A DNA stretch of 32,119 nucleotides from Bacillota bacterium (GTDB lineage: Bacteria; Bacillota; Sulfobacillia; Sulfobacillales; JAIMBI01): positions 1 through 32,119 of the forward strand of contig JAKADP010000021.1 in NCBI GenBank assembly GCA_021820465.1, read 5' to 3'. Below the pieces are notes generated by a model. That model did no database searches. It was not told the DNA's origin and worked only from the letters and a program-made list of their open reading frames with translations. Within the stretch, counting starts at the first letter, position 1, and the number at the start of each line of letters is the position of its first letter. Position numbers and translations under genes: made by a program. Below are positions 1 to 31,836 of the stretch, in pieces.

Positions 1-247
1 AAACCGAAAGTCGTCTACCTGCTCCGATTCAGTTGTCAAGGTCCGCGCCACCCGGCAGTCGCCCGCCGGTCGGACAGCACTCGCTATGTTACGCCCCCTG
101 AACACCAGATGCAAGCGAAATCCGAGAAAAAGTTTTTGGCGCAGGGGACGCACGACTAGCTTCATTTATTGTAAACGCCTATCAGACACGCTCATGGGCC
201 ACCGGATCGCGATCACTGCAGTGGTGCACGGCCGCGCAGCCTGTGCA

Positions 248-297: not shown

Positions 298-425
298 AAG
301 GAGGATGCGCTGTGGTGGTCCGAGCTCTGGCGTAGATCTGTCGGGCATTCCTATGCCCAGAACAGGACGACTGCCGGCTCGGGAAGGTAACTGGTCGCCT
401 TCCCTCGACAACAATCAAGGGGAGG
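298..425 (+). promoter_or_regulatory. Leader with short upstream ORF and alternative hairpins (putative translational attenuator)
   Basis: A perfect SD (AAGGAGG, 298-304) lies 7 nt before a GTG that opens a 7-codon ORF, MVVRALA-stop (312-335). Downstream, GGGAAGG (381-387) pairs perfectly with CCTTCCC (398-404). The same CCTTCCC can instead pair with the gene's SD region GGGGAGG (419-425) using one G-U pair. Inside the leader ORF, bases 319-326 can pair with 376-383, which would occupy GGG 381-383 and free 398-404 to cover the SD. A local hairpin GGGCAT/ATGCCC sits at 343-358. This is the logic of erm-type and ABC-F attenuators. The pairings are read from the sequence; the regulation is inferred. 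Confidence 0.5.
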
Positions 426-433
426 CATTTTCT

Positions 434-2023
434 ATGGCTTGGCTGAAGGCGGACGGCATCACACTGGTGGCAGGCGATCGGCGCTTGCTGCAGGATGCCA
501 CGTTTCGCTTGGATCCCGGTGACCGGATAGGCCTCGTCGGCCCCAACGGCATGGGCAAGACGACGCTGTTTCGCGTGATCAGCGGCGAGCGCCTTCCGGA
601 CGGGGGCCATCTGGACCGCTCTGCCGACTTGACCATTGCGTCACTCGATCAGCTGCATCCCCAGAGCGAGGGCACGGTGTGGGACACGGCCGCCGCGTCC
701 AATCGGCGGCTCCCCGAGCTAACCCGCGATCTGCGCGCTCTGGAAGCCGCGATGGCCGATCCGAGCGCACCCGACCTGGAGGCCGTCCTGGCCCGCTATG
801 CCGTGGTGCAGGAGGAATTCGAGCGCTTGGGCGGGTACACCTGGGAGGCGCAGGTGCGCCAGGCCCTAGAGGGCGCAGGCCTGCCGGAATCCCGCTACGG
901 CGACTCGCCGAGTGTGCTGTCCGGTGGAGAGCGCCACCGCCTGGCGCTGGCGCAGGTCGTGCTGTCCGGCGCGGACCTGTGGCTCTTGGATGAGCCCACC
1001 AACCACTTGGACGTGGAGGCGATGGAGTGGCTGGAGCGCACGCTCAGCGCGTTCCGCGGGGCCGTGCTCATGGCGTCGCACGACCGGCGCTTTCTCGAGC
1101 GGACCGCCACGCGCATCATGACCTGGGAAGACGGCTTCTTCTGGCTCTTGACCGGCACCTATCGCCAGTACCAACACCTGCGACAGGAGCGGACGCAGCG
1201 GATCGCGGAGGAGTGGGCGCGCTACTCCGAGGAGCGGGCCCGCCTGCAGGCGTACGTCGATCGCTACCGGGAGGGCAATCGGGCCACCATGGCCAAGAGC
1301 CGGATGCACGCCATCGCCCGCCTGGATCGGGAAGCCGTGGCGCCTGCGGACCGCACCATGACGGCCCCCCGGCGCCTCGCCCATGGCGGGCGCGAGCTGG
1401 CGGGCACCCTGGCCCTCATCGTCGACGGGCTCACCCTGTCCCGCGGGCCTCGCACCTGGCCCCCCATCCAGTTCAAGTTGCCGGTCAAGGCGTGCCTAGG
1501 GATCGTCGGACCAAATGGCTCGGGGAAAACCACGCTGCTGCACGCGCTGGCGGAGTCCGCCCCCGGCGTGCGCTGGAACCCCGATGCGGTCATCAGCTGG
1601 TACGACCAAGAGGCCGCCAGCCTGCTGCCCGAAGAGGCCACCGGCATAAGCCTCGCCCACGAAGAGGGCATGGACCGCGAGACCGCGTACCGCTTGGGCG
1701 CGCGCTTCGGTCTGAAGCGGGAGCTGCTGGACGGCACGGTCGGGACATGGTCCGGTGGCGAGCGGTCCCGATTGGCCCTGCTGTTTGCGCTGATGAGCCG
1801 CTCATCGGTCCTGCTGCTGGACGAACCGACCAATCACCTGGATCTCCGCATGCGCGAGGAGCTGGAATCTCTGCTGGCGGGCTACCCCGGCGCGCTCATC
1901 ATCGTGAGTCATGACCGGGAGCTTTTGGACAACGTGTCGACGCACACGCTGTGGTGGCGGGACGGCACGTTCCACTTCGCCCCGGGCACCTACTCCGCTG
2001 TGCAGCACCGGCCCAACGCCTAG
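434..2023 (+). CDS. ABC-F family ATPase (ribosome-associated, translation factor or antibiotic-resistance type)
   Basis: Soluble protein of 529 residues with two ABC ATPase domains and no membrane segments, the ABC-F layout. Domain 1 has Walker A GPNGMGKT (36-43), signature LSGGE (162-166) and Walker B LWLLDEP (182-188). Domain 2 has Walker A GPNGSGKT (359-366), signature WSGGE (439-443) and Walker B VLLLDEP (459-465). Both Walker B motifs run into the TNHLD sequence typical of ABC-F. A charged helical linker joins the domains; in the family this linker reaches the P-site tRNA and ribosome. The ATG at 434 was chosen for its SD AAGGGGAGG at 417-425. An in-frame ATG at 305 abuts an SD with no spacing and is unlikely. 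Family members either tune translation (EttA, Uup, YfmR) or protect ribosomes from antibiotics. The attenuator-like leader slightly favours protection. The exact subfamily cannot be fixed by eye. Confidence 0.9.
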   Translation: MAWLKADGITLVAGDRRLLQDATFRLDPGDRIGLVGPNGMGKTTLFRVISGERLPDGGHLDRSADLTIASLDQLHPQSEGTVWDTAAASNRRLPELTRDLRALEAAMADPSAPDLEAVLARYAVVQEEFERLGGYTWEAQVRQALEGAGLPESRYGDSPSVLSGGERHRLALAQVVLSGADLWLLDEPTNHLDVEAMEWLERTLSAFRGAVLMASHDRRFLERTATRIMTWEDGFFWLLTGTYRQYQHLRQERTQRIAEEWARYSEERARLQAYVDRYREGNRATMAKSRMHAIARLDREAVAPADRTMTAPRRLAHGGRELAGTLALIVDGLTLSRGPRTWPPIQFKLPVKACLGIVGPNGSGKTTLLHALAESAPGVRWNPDAVISWYDQEAASLLPEEATGISLAHEEGMDRETAYRLGARFGLKRELLDGTVGTWSGGERSRLALLFALMSRSSVLLLDEPTNHLDLRMREELESLLAGYPGALIIVSHDRELLDNVSTHTLWWRDGTFHFAPGTYSAVQHRPNA

Positions 2024-22640: not shown

Positions 22641-24326
22641 ATGCAACGTACAATGTCCCGCCACCGTTGGGTGCGCGGCGTCAGCGCGGCCAGCGTCGCC
22701 ACCATCGGGTTGGGCCTGGTGGGGGTAACCGTCATGGCGGCCTCCACACCCAGCGTGAGCATTGCGGACAGCGCGAATACGGCCCGCGTAGGGCAAACGG
22801 TCACGTTCACGGCCTCCTCCCACAATGTTGCCAACCCCGAATATCAGTGGTGGGTCGAAGCTCCCAGCGGCACCTGGACCGAGGCCCGCAACTACAGCCC
22901 TGTGGCCACCTACGCCCTCACGGACGTGCAGCCGGGCACTTACCGGGTGCTGGCGGACGTTCAAAGCACGTCGGCCGTCCAGCAGGGCCACACAACCGGG
23001 GCCGCTCACTCGACCGTTCATGCCGTCTATGTGGACAGTCAAGTGCAGCTGAGCGGGTCGGCGAGTCAAATCACCCCAGGCCAGCCGCTCACCGTCACGG
23101 CCCAGACCACCAACATTGCCAATCCGGTTTATCAATTTTGGATGCGCACTCCGGCGGGCCTTTGGGTCCAGACGGGAGCCTTTCGGTCAGCCAACTCGTG
23201 GACCGTCACCCCTGACTCCACCGGGACGTACCTGTTCATCGCCTATGCAGAATCCGCCGACACGCCCACGATCCATCCGCGGGCCAGCGCGGTCCTGAGC
23301 ATCGGCAGCCAACCGACCATGTTCTTGTCGGGACCCGGCGCACCGCCCGCCAGCATCGGCGTCGTGGGTGACATGTACCTGAATACCACGACCGAGGCGC
23401 TGTACGGACCGAAGTCCTCCAACGGATGGGGCACCCCCGTCGGCCTCATCGGGCCGGCAGGTCCGAAGGGGCCGCCCGGCGCAACGGGAGCAACTGGGCC
23501 CACCGGAGCGTCGGGCGCGACAGGTCCGACCGGGGCCACCGGCGCCGTCGGAGCCACCGGAGCGACAGGGCCCACGGGCCCTATTGGCGCGACTGGGCCG
23601 CGCGGCTACACCGGGCCTACCGGCCCGACCGGTGCCGTCGGGCCTCAGGGGCCCACAGGGGTGACCGGAGCTACGGGAGCCACTGGGTCCACCGGACCGA
23701 TAGGGCCCACCGGCCCTATTGGCGCGACGGGTCCCCGGGGCTACACCGGACCCACCGGACCGACCGGTGCCGTTGGGCCTCAAGGTCCCACAGGGGCCAC
23801 CGGGGCGACCGGTGCCACGGGCGCGACTGGGCCCCAAGGGCCCACGGGCGCCACCGGCGCCACCGGAGCGACCGGCGCCACGGGCCCGACCGGGCCCCAG
23901 GGGCCCACCGGGGCGACCGGCGCCACGGGAGCCACCGGGCCCACGGGGCCGACCGGCCCGGCCGGCGCCGCAGGCACCACCTTCTCTGCCAATTTAGGTG
24001 GCACACCGACGAGCCTCCCCAGTTCCCTGGCCACGGTGCTTCCGGTGACGGTCTACATCCCGGCGAACACCCCCTACAACGTGAATGCGTCCGTCGACGT
24101 GACGGCCACAACCTCGGGCACCCTCACCTGCTACATTCACGTAGACGGGTCAAGCCTGGTGGGCCCGTACTATGCGTCCGTCGCATCGGGTCAGTACGCT
24201 GACCTCGCCCTCGTCGGCGGTGGCAGCATCAATGCCTCGGGGTCCGCCAACATCAACCTCGACTGCTCGTTTTCAGGGACCGGGTCTGTGGAGGCGGCCG
24301 GCATCGACGGCACCATCGGCGGGTAG
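22641..24326 (+). CDS. Secreted collagen-like (Gly-X-Thr) surface protein
   Basis: A 561-residue exported protein. A signal peptide (1-33: basic start, hydrophobic core, VMAAS) is followed by two related beta-sandwich-like repeats (about 36-130 and 134-222, sharing N(V/I)ANP.YQ(W/F)W). Then come a short linker ([11 protein letters not shown]), 60 uninterrupted Gly-X-Y triplets (268-447), and a C-terminal domain (about 448-561) with two cysteines (497, 542) that may trimerise like the C-terminal heads of BclA-type proteins. Thr dominates the Y position, as in bacterial collagens that are O-glycosylated. No LPXTG anchor or C-terminal membrane helix is seen, so it is released or held non-covalently. 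The ATG at 22641 has an AGGAAGG SD. A glycosyltransferase gene follows 93 bp later. The function may be surface or spore coating; this is inferred. Confidence 0.9.
23442..23981 (+). repeat. Collagen-like (GGN NNN ACN) triplet repeat region
   Basis: 540 bp encode 60 perfect Gly-X-Y triplets, mainly GPT, GAT, GPQ and GPI. A 28-residue cassette with the core [16 protein letters not shown] occurs twice (23577-23660 and 23712-23795), 135 bp apart with only synonymous differences, indicating segmental duplication within the repeat. Confidence 0.93.
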
Positions 24327-24419: not shown

Positions 24420-25523
24420 GTGACGACCGTGAGTTTGTGCCTCATCGTCCGGGATGAAGCCCACACACTGCCGACGTGCCTGGGTTCGGTCCGCGACTTG
24501 GTGGACGAATGCATCGTGATGGACACCGGGTCCACGGACGCCACGGCCGCCGTCGCTCGAGAGTACGGCGCAGCCGTTTATCACACGCCTTGGGCCGACA
24601 GCTTTGCTGCGGCACGATCGGCAGCCTTTCAACAGGCCACCGGCGACTGGATTTGGTGGCTGGACGCCGACGACGTGCTGCTGCCCGACGACCGCGAGCG
24701 CTTTCGCGGCCTGAGGCACACCCTGGAGGGAACGGACGCCAATCGGGTCAGCATGCGCTATCACTACGCATTTGACGACGCAGGGCAGCCGATTTTGGAC
24801 TTCCGCGTGGTGCGAATGGTGCGCCGTCAGGCTGGCTGGCGTTGGGTGGGCCGCGTACACGAATATCTGGAGGCCCCCGATCCCGAATGGGCCAGCGACG
24901 TGATTGTCACCCACCGGCGCACACACCCCGCCGGTGAGCGGAACCTCCGCATCTACGACCTCATGCGGCAGCAGGGTGAGCCCTTCACGCGGCGCGACCA
25001 GCTGTACTACGCCAACGAATTGGCGCAGCACGGACGGCCGGCCGAGGCGGTTCCCCTGTACCGCCTCGTGGCGGGCGATCCCACGGTGTGGGTGGACGAT
25101 CGGTTTTGGGCCTGCCTCTCCCTCGCCGAGATCGACGCGGCTCGGGGAAACCGGCTGGAAAGCCGCCGCGCGCTGTACGACACCTTTGAGCTGGGGCCGC
25201 CTCGCGCCGAAGTATGCTGCCACCTGGGATACGACGCCGTCGAGCGCGAGGCGTGGGCCGAAGCGCGTGCCTGGTATGCGGCGGCGCTGGCCCTAGAACG
25301 GCCCCACACGCCGGGATTTATTCGGGAAGCCTGCTGGACATGGCTGCCGCATCTCCAGCTGGCGGTGTGCTACGACCACCTGGGCGATGTGCGCCGGGCG
25401 TGCTGGCACAATGAGCAAGCGGCCCGCTGGCATCCCGAGGACCCCGCCGTGCTGCACAACCGGGCCTACTTCCGGGCGCGTGGGGTCGTCCTCGCGCCGC
25501 CCGCCCCGGGGACGTCCGGCTAG
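24420..25523 (+). CDS. Family 2 glycosyltransferase with C-terminal TPR-like region
   Basis: A 367-residue protein. Residues 1-100 form a GT-A fold: VSLCLIVRDEAHTLPTCLGSV, MDTGSTDAT, and the metal/nucleotide-sugar motif WLDADD (80-85). This is the GT2 subgroup related to WaaE/KdtX-like and SunS-like enzymes. From about 190 the protein is helical, with repeats resembling TPRs (YYANELAQHGRPAEAVPLYRLV; YDHLGDVRRACWHNEQAARWHPEDP). TPR-bearing GT2 enzymes often glycosylate peptides or proteins. The start is GTG 24420, with AAGGG upstream. It lies 93 bp after the collagen-like gene, beyond a terminator, so it may glycosylate that Thr-rich protein; this is inference. Its stop shares a CTAG with the convergent cyclase stop. 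Confidence 0.85.
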   Translation: MTTVSLCLIVRDEAHTLPTCLGSVRDLVDECIVMDTGSTDATAAVAREYGAAVYHTPWADSFAAARSAAFQQATGDWIWWLDADDVLLPDDRERFRGLRHTLEGTDANRVSMRYHYAFDDAGQPILDFRVVRMVRRQAGWRWVGRVHEYLEAPDPEWASDVIVTHRRTHPAGERNLRIYDLMRQQGEPFTRRDQLYYANELAQHGRPAEAVPLYRLVAGDPTVWVDDRFWACLSLAEIDAARGNRLESRRALYDTFELGPPRAEVCCHLGYDAVEREAWAEARAWYAAALALERPHTPGFIREACWTWLPHLQLAVCYDHLGDVRRACWHNEQAARWHPEDPAVLHNRAYFRARGVVLAPPAPGTSG

Positions 25524-26611
25524 CGCCGGCCCATCACCTGGTGCACCAAAATCTCCTCGTCTTTGCCTTTGACTTGAAACGGCCCCCACGGCTGGGTTTC
25601 CACCACCGACCCCACGGCGTCCTGCGTGCTTTGGCTGAGGAGAATCGCGTTGGGGTGGTCGTGGGTGAGCCCCTCGATGCGCGACGCCACGTTGACCGGA
25701 TCGCCGATGACGGTATATTCCACCCGGGCGGCTGACCCCACATTGCCCACCACGACCTCGCCCGTGTTGATTCCAATCCCGATCGCGAGAGGCTGGCCGA
25801 TGCGGCCGGCCCACCGGCTGTTGAATGCCTGGAGGCGGTCCACCATGTCCAAGGCGGCCAGTACGGCATTGGCCTGGTTCTCCAGATGCGACAAGGGCGC
25901 GCCGAACACGGCCAGCATGCCATCGCCCATGAACTTGTTGACGGACCCAAAGTGGCTCGTGACGACCTCCGTCATGATGGCAAAGTAGTCGTTCAGCAGC
26001 GCAACGACGTCCTTCGCCGGCAGGCGCGCGCTGAGCGCCGTGAAGCCTCGGATGTCAGAAATCAGGATGGAGACAATGCGCGCCTCCCCGTCCAGCAGCG
26101 ACTCCTCTTCCGTTCGGCCCAAAATGTCCTCAACCACATTGGCGGGAACATAGCGCTGGAACAGGCGCACCGTGCGCTCCTGCACCGCCACCCGCTCCTG
26201 CAGCTCCGCGACCAGTCGGCGGTTCTTCTCCTGGGAGTCCGCCAAGGCGGCCGCGCCCCGCAGGGTCATGAGAAGCTCCTGCTCATCCCACGGCTTGGTG
26301 ACATACCGATACACCCGCCCCGTATTGATGGCCTTGATGATGGCGTCGACGTCGCTAAAGCCCGTGAGAATCATCCGGATAGTGTCGGGAAACTCCGGAA
26401 TGATGGCTTCCAAAAACTGTACGCCCGTCATATCCGGCATGCGCTGGTCGGTGATGACGATGGGAATGTGGTGCTGCCGCAGGATGCCCAGAGCCTCGCG
26501 GCCCGATGGGCTGGTGTGCACGGTGAACTGACGGCGGAACGCCGCCTTAAAGGCCATCAAATTATGTTCTTCGTCGTCAACGTATAGGACGGCCGTCGGC
26601 TGATGACTCAC
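25520..26611 (-). CDS. Response regulator with class III adenylate cyclase domain
   Basis: A 363-residue two-domain signalling protein. The receiver domain (1-120) has acidic DDEE (12-15), phosphoacceptor Asp55 (VITDQRMPD), Thr83 and Lys106. A coiled-coil stretch (about 122-150) leads to a class III nucleotidyl cyclase domain (about 175-345). That domain has metal-binding Asp186 (SDIRGF) and Asp230 (KFMGDG), transition-state Asn307 and Arg311 (GDPVNVASR), and the base-selecting pair Lys226/Thr300, the adenylate cyclase type IIIb pattern. It should make cAMP under phosphorylation control. The start is GTG 26611, overlapping the kinase stop (GTGA), so the upstream kinase is almost certainly its partner. 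No cAMP receptor is in the window. Confidence 0.92.
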   Translation of the reverse strand: MSHQPTAVLYVDDEEHNLMAFKAAFRRQFTVHTSPSGREALGILRQHHIPIVITDQRMPDMTGVQFLEAIIPEFPDTIRMILTGFSDVDAIIKAINTGRVYRYVTKPWDEQELLMTLRGAAALADSQEKNRRLVAELQERVAVQERTVRLFQRYVPANVVEDILGRTEEESLLDGEARIVSILISDIRGFTALSARLPAKDVVALLNDYFAIMTEVVTSHFGSVNKFMGDGMLAVFGAPLSHLENQANAVLAALDMVDRLQAFNSRWAGRIGQPLAIGIGINTGEVVVGNVGSAARVEYTVIGDPVNVASRIEGLTHDHPNAILLSQSTQDAVGSVVETQPWGPFQVKGKDEEILVHQVMGRR

Positions 26612-29600
26612 GGTACACTCCCTTTCACGGTCGCCGTGCCGTCAGCGGAGGCCGCCCCAGCACGCAACGCTGCCCCGTCAGTCGGCTGACGCCTGGGAAT
26701 CCGAATAATAAACGTCGTCCCCACCCCGGGGGTGCTCTCTACCGACAGATGCCCGTGGTGGCGCTCCACGATTCCGTAGCTGATGGAGAGGCCCAGCCCG
26801 GTGCCCTCCCCAACGCCCTTGGTGGTATAGAACGGCTCAAAGATTCGGCGCTGGACATCGGGGGGCATGCCGATCCCGGTATCGCTGATCCGAACTTCCA
26901 CGTCGCTGTCCTCCAGCTGGTGCACGGCCACCCGGATGGTCCCCTCGCCCGGGATGGCCTGGATGGCATTCACCAGCAGGTTCATGAACACCTGGTTCAG
27001 CTGCCCGGGATAGCACTCGATGGGCGGCACGTCGCCGTAGTCCCGCTCGATGGTGATGCGCGTCCCGCACTGCTGCTTCACCAGCATGAGCGTCGACTCC
27101 ACCCCCTCGCTCACCACCGCGAGCTTCACGTCGTCTTCATCGAGCCGCGAGAAGTTCCGAAGCCCGCGCACGATCTCCGCCGTCCGCTGGGCGCCATCCT
27201 CGATCCCCCGGAGCAGTTCCGCCACCTCTTGGCGTGTATACGCGGCATCGATGGTCTCCGCGTACTGGATGGGCACCTGGAACTGGGCGGCCAAATCGTG
27301 TTCGCGGACCGCCCCCTCGTAGAGGTCCAGGAGCTCCATCAGGTCCTGCACGTCCCGCCGCAGGGAGGGAACACTCGACACCACAAAGTTGACCGGATTA
27401 TTGATCTCGTGCGCCACTCCGGCCGTCAGCTGACCCAGCGACGCCATTTTTTCGCCCTCGACCATCTGCCGCTGGGCACGGCGGAGGGTGTCCAGCGCCA
27501 CCGCCAAATCTTCGGTGCGCGCCGCCACGCGCGCCTCCAGCTCGCCGTACACCCGGGCGTTTTCGATCGACACCCCCGCCTGTCCAGCCCACAGCTGCAA
27601 GAGGCTCACCCGGTCAGGGGGAAACGCACGCGCCGTCAAGCCGTTGTCCAGGTACAGCACAGCCAGCGTGGTGCCCTGCTTCACCACCGGCAGGGCCAGC
27701 GCCGATCGCACGGGCTGGCGCCGGAAGTACGCATCCCCCCCGAATCGCCGGTCGGCGGCGGCTTCGTCCAGTCGGACGGCGCCCCCGGTCCGCACCACAT
27801 AGCGCACCAGGCTGGCAGGCACCCGCCGCGTGGTGGCGAGCGGCTCGGGGAGAAACGTGCCGCCGGCGGCGTCGCCCTCGCGAATGGCTTCCACCCACCA
27901 GCCATCGGACCGCTCCAGCAGCAGGGCTCCGCGCTCCGCACCCGCCTGCAGCCGCGCCGTCTCCAGCAGCACGGTCACCAGGCGGTCCAGCTGCACCTCC
28001 TGCGCCAGCGCGGCCGAGGTTTGGACCATCGCCTCCAAGTCCACCGACAAGTTTTCTTCCACCACCGGTGCGGGCGCGACGAAGTCATCCAGCTCGGGAT
28101 GCTGCGCCATCATCTGCTGAGCTTTGGCGGTCAGGCCCCAGCGCGAATACAGCCGAAACGCCGCCAAGAGGTGCGGCAGGGCTTCCCACGCACGCCCCGC
28201 AGCCCGATCGGCTCTGGCCGCCTCCTCGTGGATGAATGCCGACACCAGCACGGACCCCGATGCCTCCGCGGCATGGACGGCCTGGGCAAACAGGTCGGAC
28301 GCCGCCTCGCCCCGGCGGGCGCTGTCCAGGGCATCCAGCAAGAGCGCGCGCGCGCGGTAGTTGTCCGGACAAGCCCCGGCCCACACGCCTATCCGCTGCC
28401 GAAGCGCCGCCCAACGCTCCTGGTCGGCGCCATCGTCAGATGCCGGAGCCCGCCGGGCTCGTCGCACCGCCTCCAGAAAGGCCAGCTCCGGCTCCAGCAG
28501 AGCCAGCCGATGCGGCGGAGCGTCCGGGGCCGTCCACGGATCGGCCTCCTCTTGGCCAAACAGGAGCTCGGTCCACCCGGCCAGGTAGGCGGCCAGCCAC
28601 CGGTCGTCGGCTGACCCGGGGCGGGTGGTCGGCGCGTCGGGCACGGGAAGGGCCCGCCATCGGCGAAGCACCGCGGACAGGTGGCCGAGCTGCCACGCCG
28701 ACGCCGCCACCCGCTTGGTGGCCGCTTCGTCCAGCCGCTCGTCGGTGCGCTGCAGCAGGGGCTCCAGCGGCTCGCTCGCCAACAGGCGCGCCACGATGGC
28801 GACCGGCGCGTGCACCAGTGCCTCTGGCTCCTGCCCGCCAAGCCGCGCTACTTGGCTGAAATGCTCGAGGCGCTCCACAATGCCGCTGAACGTCTGTCGG
28901 AAGTGCGCCACGCGCAGCACAAACGGGAGCGCCGCCCCCGGGTCCGGGCCGCGCAGGTCGGCCCGCTCCCACAGCGCCAGGGCCAGCGCCCCCCACTCCA
29001 GGGCGTCGGCCAGGCCCTCAGCGTCCCCCAAATCCACCCGCGCCAGGGGGCCGAAGCAAAATCCGGGGCCGCATGGGGTCCACCCCTCCTGTAAGGACAG
29101 GCGGAGCCCATACAGCGCGAGGTAGTTCCCGAGGCCGTCGCCGTCTCCGAGCGCCCGCACCATGCCCTGGATCAGGCGGGCCACCGGCTCGGCCGCCTCG
29201 TGCGCGGCCCGCGGGGCGGCTGCCCATTCGGCGACACTGCGCTCCCGGCGCCGCGCACGAACGTCCAGATAAAGCGCGTGCACCTCAGCCTCGGTCACCG
29301 GGTCCGCCAGCGTGACGCCGGCATCGGCCAGAAACAGCCGGCCCTCGCGGCGAATCCGATCCCCCTCGCCCCGGGCCGCCCAGATCTCCACCCAGCGGAC
29401 GTATGCGAGCGCGCGGTCCGCAAAGCTGGCGCCGTGCTCGCGCAGGACGGCCGCCGTGGCTTCGCACCCGTCAAAGTCATACCGGGCATACTGCGCGTCC
29501 ATCTGGAGCGCATGGAGGTCCCGAGCCAGGTCGTAGCGCGCAGCGAAGGCCTCGGCGGGCAGCCACCGCACTCCGGACTGCGCCAGTTCCAGTCCCTCCG

Positions 29601-31836
29601 CCCAGGCGCCGCGCTCGGCCGCCCGCCGGCCCGCCGCCAGATTGGCGGCGGCAGCGGCCCATCGATCCTCCTCGGCCACCGGCGCCCCGCGAGCCTCGTT
29701 ATAGTGGCGCGCCAGCTGATACAGATCCGCATCGGGCGCCCCAGACACCTGTCGGCTCCCTAGGACGCGCGCCAGCCCCAGGTGCGCCTCCTGCCGATCG
29801 GCCGCCGAGCCCGCTCCCTTGAGGGCCTCCCAGACGCCGGGATGCACAAACCGCAAGCCCGGGCGCCCCCGGCCTTCGGCTGGGGCGTCTTCCACCACCC
29901 CGGTGCCTCGCAACTCGCCCTCCAGGGCGCGCAGCGCCCCCAGCGGCCAGTTGAGCGCCAGCGCCAGCACCGTCGGGTCAAACCGATCCCCTAAGGCGGC
30001 CGCCCAGCGCAGGTGGCGTGCGGTGCTGGTGGAGACGCCGGCCACCCGGCGCAGCAAGCCGGCCACGACCGGCGCCCGGGGCTCCAGCTGCTGCGCGGCG
30101 GCCAAGTCCCAGGCCCAGCTTTTCGTGGGGCGGTCGTAGCGCAAGGCGTCCTCGCGCCACAGCACATCCAAGAGCTGACGCACACCAGCCGGGTTGCCGG
30201 CGGACCGGTCGGTGAGAATCTGGGCCAATTCTGTCACGGCAGCGAGGGGGCGGCGCAGCATCTCCGCCAGCCAGGTGCGCACCGCCGTGATGTCCAGCGC
30301 CGGCAGGACGACGGTGTGCGCCCCCGCTGCCGCCCCCCACGTGGCGCGCACCCGATCATGCGGATTGGGCGGGTCCGACTGATTCGCCGTCGCCATCAGC
30401 AGCAGCCCGCCCCGCAGGTCCGCGGCCAGCAGCGAGCGCATCACCTCTTCGGAATACGTGTCCGCCCACTCCACGTCGTCCCACGCCAGCACGACGGTGC
30501 CGTCTTCTGCCAAGGTTTCGATGAGCCGGGTCAGGGCTCGCCGCAGATCGGGGGTCGCACCCGGGGGGGTGGGATCGTCCCCGATCGCGTGCCCCATGAG
30601 CGCCCGCCAGTGTGGAAGGCCGGCGAGGACACTGACATCCCCCGCCAGCCGATGTTCGAGGCGCGCCCGCCACACCGTCACTTCGGCGTCGGACAGATAC
30701 AGGAGCTGTGCGACGAGGGGATCCACCATGCGAAGGAGCCCGGCGTACGGCACGCGCTGTTCGTCCGGCTGAAAGCGGCCCCGCACCACCAAGCCAGCTT
30801 CTCCCTCCACGCGGCTGACGGCTTGGGCCAGCCGAGCTGACTTGCCTCCGCCCGGGTCGCTGCGGATGAGGATCGTGGCCACCCCGCCATCCCGAACCGC
30901 AGTCCACGCTTCGGATACGGCGCGCGTCGTCGGGTCGTCGCCGTAGAGGCGCGGGGGCACCGGGAGGGCGACGGGATCCTCCTCCCGCCCGAGGATGACG
31001 CCGCTCAAGGTTCCGCGCTGCTCGGCGTGCTCGAGGCACACGGCAAGATCCGCCCCCACGGCCACCGCCGAGTGGTACCGCGCGTCCGGCTCCTTCTGCA
31101 GCAGCCGCAGAACGAGGTCGGACAGGGGCGAGGGCAAATCCGGCTGCAGCTGGCTGGGCGGGGTGGGCCGCCGGGCCAAGTGGGCGTGCACCAGCGCCAT
31201 GGGGCTCTGGTCCGGAAAAGGCGGCTGCCCGGTCAGCAAGAAGTAGAGCGTGGCCCCCAGCGCGTAGAGGTCCGACCGCTCATCCAGCCGCCGCAGCACG
31301 CGACCCGTTTGCTCGGGGGCCAGATACGCCAGTGCGCCGTCCAGATCGGCCGCCTCTACCGGCAGGGGCTCCTTGTCCACCAGGCGGCGGGCCTGCTGGA
31401 AGTCAATGAGGCGCACGCCACCGTCCGGCAGAACCACCACGTGGTCCGGCTGAATGGCTAGGTGCAGGATGTGGTGGGCATGCAGGGCCCGAACCGCCTC
31501 CGCCAGCTGGTGGGCGACGGGCAGCGCCTGCCGCCAGTCGACCGGCGCGCCGCGGCGCCACGCGGGGAGCGCCACGCCGCCAGCATCCTCCATGACCAGC
31601 AGGGGAGCGGTTCCGCTGTCCACCAGCGCGCATAGAGTGGGCCCTGGCGCGCCGGCCAACTCTTCGAGCAGCGCGGCTTCATGCCGATAGCCATCCCAGA
31701 TGCCGGGCGGCGGATTATCGCGCGCCGGATGCTTGAGCACCACGGCCCTGCCGTCCGATTCTTGGACAGCACGCCACACGAGGGTGTTGCGGCTCTGATG
31801 GACCGGTTCGAGCTTACGATAGCCGCCCGACTCCAT
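26608..31836 (-). CDS. Giant pseudokinase-AAA ATPase-GAF-histidine kinase (HstK-like)
   Basis: A 1742-residue cytosolic sensor. The N-terminal protein-kinase fold (1-270) keeps Lys35 (VVLK), Glu53, Asp145 (DFQ) and APE, but the catalytic loop reads HLAIQPDH (125-132). The HRD aspartate is Ala127, and the catalytic-loop Lys and Asn are Gln129 and His132; the Gly-rich loop is also absent, so it is probably a pseudokinase. An AAA/STAND-type ATPase follows, with Walker A SDPGGGKS (326-333) and Walker B VVLAWDD (448-454). Next are about 700 helical, TPR-like residues, a GAF domain (about 1305-1450), HisKA with His1476 (GVAHEINNP), and HATPase with Asn1623, DTGIGMP and GTGLGLS. It matches the trifunctional Ser/Thr kinase-ATPase-histidine kinase family. 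The ATG at 31836 has GGAG nearby. The stop overlaps the cyclase start, forming a two-component pair. Confidence 0.92.
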   Translation of the reverse strand: MESGGYRKLEPVHQSRNTLVWRAVQESDGRAVVLKHPARDNPPPGIWDGYRHEAALLEELAGAPGPTLCALVDSGTAPLLVMEDAGGVALPAWRRGAPVDWRQALPVAHQLAEAVRALHAHHILHLAIQPDHVVVLPDGGVRLIDFQQARRLVDKEPLPVEAADLDGALAYLAPEQTGRVLRRLDERSDLYALGATLYFLLTGQPPFPDQSPMALVHAHLARRPTPPSQLQPDLPSPLSDLVLRLLQKEPDARYHSAVAVGADLAVCLEHAEQRGTLSGVILGREEDPVALPVPPRLYGDDPTTRAVSEAWTAVRDGGVATILIRSDPGGGKSARLAQAVSRVEGEAGLVVRGRFQPDEQRVPYAGLLRMVDPLVAQLLYLSDAEVTVWRARLEHRLAGDVSVLAGLPHWRALMGHAIGDDPTPPGATPDLRRALTRLIETLAEDGTVVLAWDDVEWADTYSEEVMRSLLAADLRGGLLLMATANQSDPPNPHDRVRATWGAAAGAHTVVLPALDITAVRTWLAEMLRRPLAAVTELAQILTDRSAGNPAGVRQLLDVLWREDALRYDRPTKSWAWDLAAAQQLEPRAPVVAGLLRRVAGVSTSTARHLRWAAALGDRFDPTVLALALNWPLGALRALEGELRGTGVVEDAPAEGRGRPGLRFVHPGVWEALKGAGSAADRQEAHLGLARVLGSRQVSGAPDADLYQLARHYNEARGAPVAEEDRWAAAAANLAAGRRAAERGAWAEGLELAQSGVRWLPAEAFAARYDLARDLHALQMDAQYARYDFDGCEATAAVLREHGASFADRALAYVRWVEIWAARGEGDRIRREGRLFLADAGVTLADPVTEAEVHALYLDVRARRRERSVAEWAAAPRAAHEAAEPVARLIQGMVRALGDGDGLGNYLALYGLRLSLQEGWTPCGPGFCFGPLARVDLGDAEGLADALEWGALALALWERADLRGPDPGAALPFVLRVAHFRQTFSGIVERLEHFSQVARLGGQEPEALVHAPVAIVARLLASEPLEPLLQRTDERLDEAATKRVAASAWQLGHLSAVLRRWRALPVPDAPTTRPGSADDRWLAAYLAGWTELLFGQEEADPWTAPDAPPHRLALLEPELAFLEAVRRARRAPASDDGADQERWAALRQRIGVWAGACPDNYRARALLLDALDSARRGEAASDLFAQAVHAAEASGSVLVSAFIHEEAARADRAAGRAWEALPHLLAAFRLYSRWGLTAKAQQMMAQHPELDDFVAPAPVVEENLSVDLEAMVQTSAALAQEVQLDRLVTVLLETARLQAGAERGALLLERSDGWWVEAIREGDAAGGTFLPEPLATTRRVPASLVRYVVRTGGAVRLDEAAADRRFGGDAYFRRQPVRSALALPVVKQGTTLAVLYLDNGLTARAFPPDRVSLLQLWAGQAGVSIENARVYGELEARVAARTEDLAVALDTLRRAQRQMVEGEKMASLGQLTAGVAHEINNPVNFVVSSVPSLRRDVQDLMELLDLYEGAVREHDLAAQFQVPIQYAETIDAAYTRQEVAELLRGIEDGAQRTAEIVRGLRNFSRLDEDDVKLAVVSEGVESTLMLVKQQCGTRITIERDYGDVPPIECYPGQLNQVFMNLLVNAIQAIPGEGTIRVAVHQLEDSDVEVRISDTGIGMPPDVQRRIFEPFYTTKGVGEGTGLGLSISYGIVERHHGHLSVESTPGVGTTFIIRIPRRQPTDGAALRAGAASADGTATVKGSVP

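Follow-up and report, generated by a model that had tools for sequence, protein, structure and literature searches.

Does the short reading frame that precedes an ABC-F gene in this DNA belong to a regulatory switch, and if so, which step of gene expression does the switch act upon and what signal does it answer? An earlier note, made from the letters alone, had proposed an Erm-like translational attenuator at this locus, in which a ribosome stalled on a leader ORF frees the Shine-Dalgarno (SD) sequence of the gene. We analyzed the whole stretch of 32,119 nucleotides (here called the window), which belongs to a genome of 2.9 Mb (its near relatives are Bacillota-labelled metagenome bins), and compared it with related genomes of the Sulfobacillus order.

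The ABC-F protein and the surroundings of its gene

The gene downstream of the putative switch starts with an ATG at position 434, extends to position 2023 on the forward strand, and encodes a protein of 529 amino acids. Pfam analysis identified two ABC_tran domains and an ABC_tran_Xtn domain, and the protein has the architecture of an ABC-F ATPase, with two ABC domains in one chain, a helical linker of approximately 80 amino acids and no membrane domain. N-terminal extensions of this protein from ATG 86 or ATG 305 were rejected: the window has an uninterrupted upstream frame (673 codons in total), but each of the other three species in the genus has a stop in that frame within about 14 codons.

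The top structural matches of the protein model (pLDDT 88) were ABC-F proteins. Since ABCF1, VmlR2, VgaL, EttA and others were matched at similar Z, the structure does not tell a resistance factor from a housekeeping factor. By sequence, the protein scored best against EttA among solved structures, and it reached none of the curated resistance-family cut-offs; the best score was that for the general ribosomal-protection family, ribo_prot_ABC_F (342 bits, close to but under the cut-off of 380), and scores for the named families (Vga, Msr, Lsa, Sal, OptrA, CplR and the producer group) were far below their cut-offs. In a tree with Escherichia coli and plasmid references, the ABC-F proteins of the order formed a clade of their own, with weak placement among the references (43/32) and long branches. 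Members of the ABC-F family often free ribosomes from antibiotics. Ribosome protection by this member is plausible, mainly on account of the switch upstream of the gene and not of the protein itself.

The start of the window (positions 1 to 60, reverse strand) resembles the stretch just 5' of the 16S rRNA gene in relatives and is probably the leader of a divergent rRNA operon, truncated where the contig ends; this would account for the many contigs that break at this place. A 16S rRNA gene lies divergent from the ABC-F gene at loci L024, L025, L029 and L032, and this arrangement is common in the order and persists even where the leader described below is absent. Elsewhere in the window, a gene at positions 22641 to 24326 of the forward strand encodes a 561-amino-acid protein that contains collagen-like triple-helix repeats, and a family 2 glycosyltransferase comes next. 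A response regulator carrying an adenylate/guanylate cyclase domain (25520 to 26611) adjoins a 1742-amino-acid protein (26608 to 31836, reverse strand) that combines Ser/Thr protein kinase, AAA, GAF and histidine-kinase ATPase domains.

The leader ORF and its distribution

Direct reading of the sequence confirmed the SD, the seven-codon ORF and the three pairings on which the earlier note was built. The SD of the leader ORF, AAGGAGG, occupies positions 298 to 304 of the forward strand, and the ORF itself (GTG GTG GTC CGA GCT CTG GCG TAG, encoding MVVRALA) occupies positions 312 to 335, its GTG lying 7 nucleotides downstream of AGGAGG. An ATG at position 305 touches this SD and is in the frame of the ABC-F gene; its position is not conserved, so the leader probably starts at GTG 312. 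A putative extended -10 promoter element, TG-G-TATACT, is found upstream at positions 248 to 256 of the forward strand. The motif TGnTATACT also occurs 59 to 61 nucleotides before the leader start in genomes G001 and G003, and TGnTATGCT occurs in G002; no good match to a -35 element was found for the putative promoter in the window.

The leader peptide proved to be conserved, as the proposal of an attenuator had called for. A short ORF preceded by an SD is present at the same place ahead of 12 ABC-F loci in the order, specifically those of the window, G001, G002, G003, G004, G006, G008, G011, G021, G027 (two copies) and G029, with the consensus M(x)VRxL. The peptide is MVVRALA in the window, G001 and G003, MVRALA in G002, MVRELG in G006, MIRELG in G004, MVVRQLP in G008, MMVRCQPR in G029, MMVHCQPR in G021 and MVVLQLQQ in G011. 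G027 carries two diverged ABC-F copies (L020 and L071), and both are preceded by a leader of their own, MAVRQLP in one case and MVVRQLP in the other. Codon differences are mostly at third positions (Val GTC, GTT or GTG; Arg CGA or CGT), the Leu codon occurs in all four CTN forms (CTG, CTA, CTC and CTT), and all three stop codons are used. The ABC-F proteins of the two groups of leader-bearing species are only about 49% alike, and the leader is kept in both. Elsewhere in 61 genomes, leader-like patterns matched only at the level of a reversed control. We found no earlier report of an M(x)VRxL consensus in the attenuator literature searched.

The arginine of the consensus is not absolute, being replaced by His in G021 (locus L021) and by Leu in G011 (L023). 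This bears on the idea that the leader senses a shortage of an amino acid or a general translation stress, for example a lack of charged Arg-tRNA, and not a drug. A conserved Arg codon in so short a leader would suit such a sensor; classical amino-acid attenuators, however, carry runs of the regulating codon, whereas this leader has a single Arg codon that is lost at two loci, and the regulated gene is not biosynthetic. We therefore regard an amino-acid attenuator as very improbable.

Not all orthologues carry the leader. The nearest relatives have both the short ORF and the complementary segments, as the earlier note would require, but more distant orthologues of the order lack them. In a tree of the ABC-F proteins, the leader appears in two clades, both of which have sisters that lack it (L016 to L019; genera g7 and g13). 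The leaderless genes of g7 and g13 have, by eye, a promoter-like -10 element so close to the gene that an attenuator would not fit in between. The upstream regions of more distant ABC-F genes in the class (36 to 43% identity), likewise inspected by eye, showed no such leader. Both a single ancient leader that was lost several times and two separate gains fit this distribution; the shared VRxL core favors one origin. That two subclades have the leader and their sister clades do not offers a natural comparison for the loss or gain of a switch.

The same distribution weighs on a reading in which the ABC-F protein is a housekeeping factor that relieves pauses, and the VRxL leader is an arrest sequence resolved by that factor, such that a low level of the factor turns the gene on with no antibiotic needed. 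Consistent with such a role, the gene adjoins an rRNA operon in many relatives, EttA is the best match among solved structures by sequence while no resistance-family cut-off is reached, and the leader amino acids are conserved beyond the needs of a stall at the start codon. There is also a precedent in MsrD, which acts on its own leader (PMC10314930). Against it stand the leaderless orthologues in g7 and g13 and the weakening of the motif to VH in L021 and VL in L023. We also know of no VRxL arrest peptide, and we consider this reading improbable. A related and rather speculative idea, which we hold to be unlikely although somewhat less so, is that M(x)VRxL acts as a sequence-specific arrest peptide, adapted either to one class of drugs or to pauses that the ABC-F protein resolves; an order-specific, rRNA-adjacent ABC-F factor would then be feedback-controlled by its own activity, as opposed to a generic stall at the start codon. 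The conserved VRxL core is, in any case, a specific motif that may cause sequence-dependent stalling.

Structure and proposed switching of the leader RNA

Four segments of the leader, all on the forward strand, can form three pairings. Segment A (319 to 326, UCCGAGCU), which lies within the leader ORF, pairs with positions 376 to 383 (GGCUCGGG) of segment B through six Watson-Crick and two G.U pairs. Segment B as a whole (GGCUCGGGAAGG, 376 to 387) also includes positions 381 to 387 (GGGAAGG), which pair with segment C (398 to 404, CCUUCCC) through seven Watson-Crick pairs and would serve as the antiterminator of the ON state. In the OFF state, segment C pairs instead with segment D (419 to 425, GGGGAGG), the SD of the ABC-F gene, through six Watson-Crick pairs and one G.U pair, and thereby hides it. 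A central hairpin (343 to 358, GGGCAU-UCCU-AUGCCC) closes the A:B domain. No Rfam family matched the leader.

The earlier note had cautioned that GC-rich DNA can give chance pairings. Taken alone, the window justifies this caution: the fold of 178 nucleotides had a z score of only -1.54, with 13 of 200 shuffles as good, and the concealment of the SD was equalled by 28 of 150 shuffles. Across the 12 leader loci, the minimum free energy z score was below -3 at six, and the GGAGG of the gene was hidden at eight to a degree reached by at most 3 of 150 shuffles; these scores are not independent because the loci are related. When the six species of the window's family were aligned, the OFF fold (A:B, central hairpin, and C:D over the SD) emerged unprompted as the RNAalifold consensus, with 95% of cells paired, compared with 34 to 60% when the partners were slid by one to three columns.

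The search for compensatory changes was also positive. Both-side changes were observed at 6 of the 24 OFF pairs (12 cells), including two pairs of the central hairpin and a C-G to A-U double change in A:B in G004 and G006, and the covariation score of the OFF structure (0.331) was reached by none of 500 shuffles; the independent events are few because the six sequences effectively form two groups. In G004 and G006 the C:D pairing is shifted (CCCUCC:GGAGGG) and the SD is still covered. Since the ON hairpin B:C does not vary among the six species, covariation says nothing about it; such invariance fits an ON role but does not prove one. A covariance model built on the family gave one match per genome in the six genomes, ahead of the ABC-F gene, with E values of 1e-28 or better, and nothing else clearly better than 1e-3 was found among 154 genomes of the class. 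A random short ORF in GC-rich DNA, to which the modest fold score of the window itself might point, is thus refuted by comparison, given the ORF conserved at 12 loci and the covarying structure, and we give it next to no credence. These data indicate that the attenuator is genuine, as judged by comparative sequence evidence.

How the switch would operate is less straightforward. Folding with the leader constrained, which the earlier note had put forward as a check of its stalled-ribosome mechanism, left the SD of the window hidden: in ViennaRNA equilibrium folds its unpaired probability was 0.11 to 0.12 even when a ribosome occupied the leader, forced B:C was 5.8 kcal/mol worse, and no switch was seen in genus g1. 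Equilibrium folding was therefore replaced as the switch test by folding of the nascent transcript. In window RNA ending before segment D, the probability of B:C rose from 0.19 when the leader was free to 0.99 when the start codon was occupied, a ribosome at that codon being sufficient to cover segment A; a ribosome on codon 4 gave no rise (0.17). Occupation of the start codon raised the probability of B:C in five of the six species, most cleanly in G004 and G006. Nascent folding in G003, G004 and G006 was like that of the window, the effect was weak in G002, and no rise was ever seen in G001. Since C:D is more stable than B:C as soon as D is present, switching would depend on the timing of transcription; in the model it requires that the fold be settled before the polymerase reaches the SD.

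In the second group of leader-bearing genomes (G008, G011, G021, G027 and G029), an anti-SD sequence lies between the SD of the leader and the leader's own AUG. The leader architecture at the loci of this group (L020 to L023, L036 and L071) is unlike that of the window's family. In G011 and G029 the model opened the SD only on stalling at the first four or five codons; the modelled opening in G008 and G027 was small.

A run of U residues follows the C:D hairpin directly. It reads AUUUUCU in the window (427 to 433, forward strand), UUUUUU in G001, G003, G004 and G006, and UUUUU in G002, and it makes the hairpin resemble an intrinsic terminator. The genome is GC-rich, and among 169 SD-preceded ORFs sampled (ORFs of at least 120 amino acids following GGAGG and 5 to 10 bases, in 16 stretches of 20 kb, about 0.3 Mb), the only one with TTTT in the spacer between SD and start was the ABC-F gene. 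A simple terminator scan of the window found none, the loop limit of the scan excluding the C:D hairpin. T-rich spacers also occur in some leaderless relatives (L016, L017 and L032). Because the SD-hiding hairpin has a U-run unique among the sampled genes, the element probably works by transcription attenuation as well as by translational attenuation.

Purely translational attenuation, in which the full-length mRNA is always made, only access to the SD is switched and the U-run is incidental, is the alternative to be weighed here. The exchange of A:B and C:D for B:C follows the logic of ermC, the SD itself lies in the switched hairpin, the U-run of the window is weak, and translational attenuation alone was enough in cplR after mutation of its polyU (PMC10201436). 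However, a U-run right after the hairpin is absent from the 168 other sampled ORFs, it is UUUUUU in four near relatives, and the greater stability of C:D ties switching to the timing of transcription. We consider this reading unlikely, although the least so of the alternatives.

We conclude that a ribosome-stalling attenuator with transcriptional and translational halves quite probably controls this ABC-F translation factor. When there is no stress, ribosomes would translate the leader and leave it, A would pair with B, and C would then pair with D; the C:D hairpin would hide the SD of the gene and, with the U-run, could also terminate transcription immediately 5' of the AUG. A drug-stalled ribosome on the first leader codons would cover A, B would pair with C before D is transcribed, and, with the terminator/SD hairpin absent, the ABC-F protein would be made. 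Drugs that block the first peptide bonds are favored because a ribosome on the start codon or an early codon is enough in the model. Early stalling, even at the start codon, would suffice, which by analogy suits lincosamides, pleuromutilins and streptogramin A. What the comparison shows is that the ORF, the pairings and the U-run are kept in the near relatives; we infer the switching, the termination and an early-acting peptidyl-transferase antibiotic as the signal. An ABC-F clade without an assigned function would thereby gain a likely signal, namely stalled ribosomes, and leader-ORF control of ABC-F genes would extend to the Sulfobacillus order, far from clinics and known antibiotic producers.

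Comparison with known attenuators

In the ermC attenuator, the leader ORF lies inside the first helix, and pairing of segments 1:2 and 3:4 is exchanged for 2:3. The element described here shares the position of the leader ORF and the predicted exchange of A:B and C:D for B:C. It differs from ermC-type systems in that the regulated gene encodes an ABC-F protein and not an Erm rRNA methylase, a U-run follows the last hairpin, and the leader is much shorter, without an IFVI or +x+ motif. The Erm-like label therefore holds for a leader-ORF attenuator with mutually exclusive pairings, but the U-run makes cplR, and not erm, the closest precedent.

In cplR of Clostridioides difficile, an ARE1 ABC-F gene, a terminator hairpin hides the SD, polyU precedes the AUG, and transcripts end at the start codon, with translational and transcriptional attenuation acting together (PMC10201436). 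Our element resembles it in the uORF held in a 5' hairpin, the SD-hiding, terminator-like hairpin and the U-run next to the start codon, and is probably a dual attenuator of this kind and not purely Erm-like. The two differ in that the cplR uORF has three codons, MR[I/M], whereas that of the present family has six to eight with a VRxL core, and the ABC-F protein of the window scores 200 bits against a CplR family cut-off of 780. The vmlR leader of Bacillus subtilis likewise has a uORF, an anti-antiterminator, an antiterminator, a terminator and an SD-hiding hairpin (PMC9226507); its terminator (SL-3) and SD (SL-4) hairpins are separate and its uORF is MIN, whereas here one hairpin apparently serves both purposes.

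Short uORFs also precede the ABC-F genes tiaA and are5sc of Streptomyces coelicolor, where lincosamides, pleuromutilins and streptogramin A stall ribosomes at the start codon (PMC12421871); these uORFs, MVGDDDISG and MLV, have no sequence resemblance to the window leader. The msrD gene is controlled at the level of transcription by a terminator (PMC10314930). Our literature search found no paper naming both Sulfobacillus and ABC-F. The switch looks new for the Sulfobacillus order, with a uORF consensus of its own, while its working principle is already known elsewhere.
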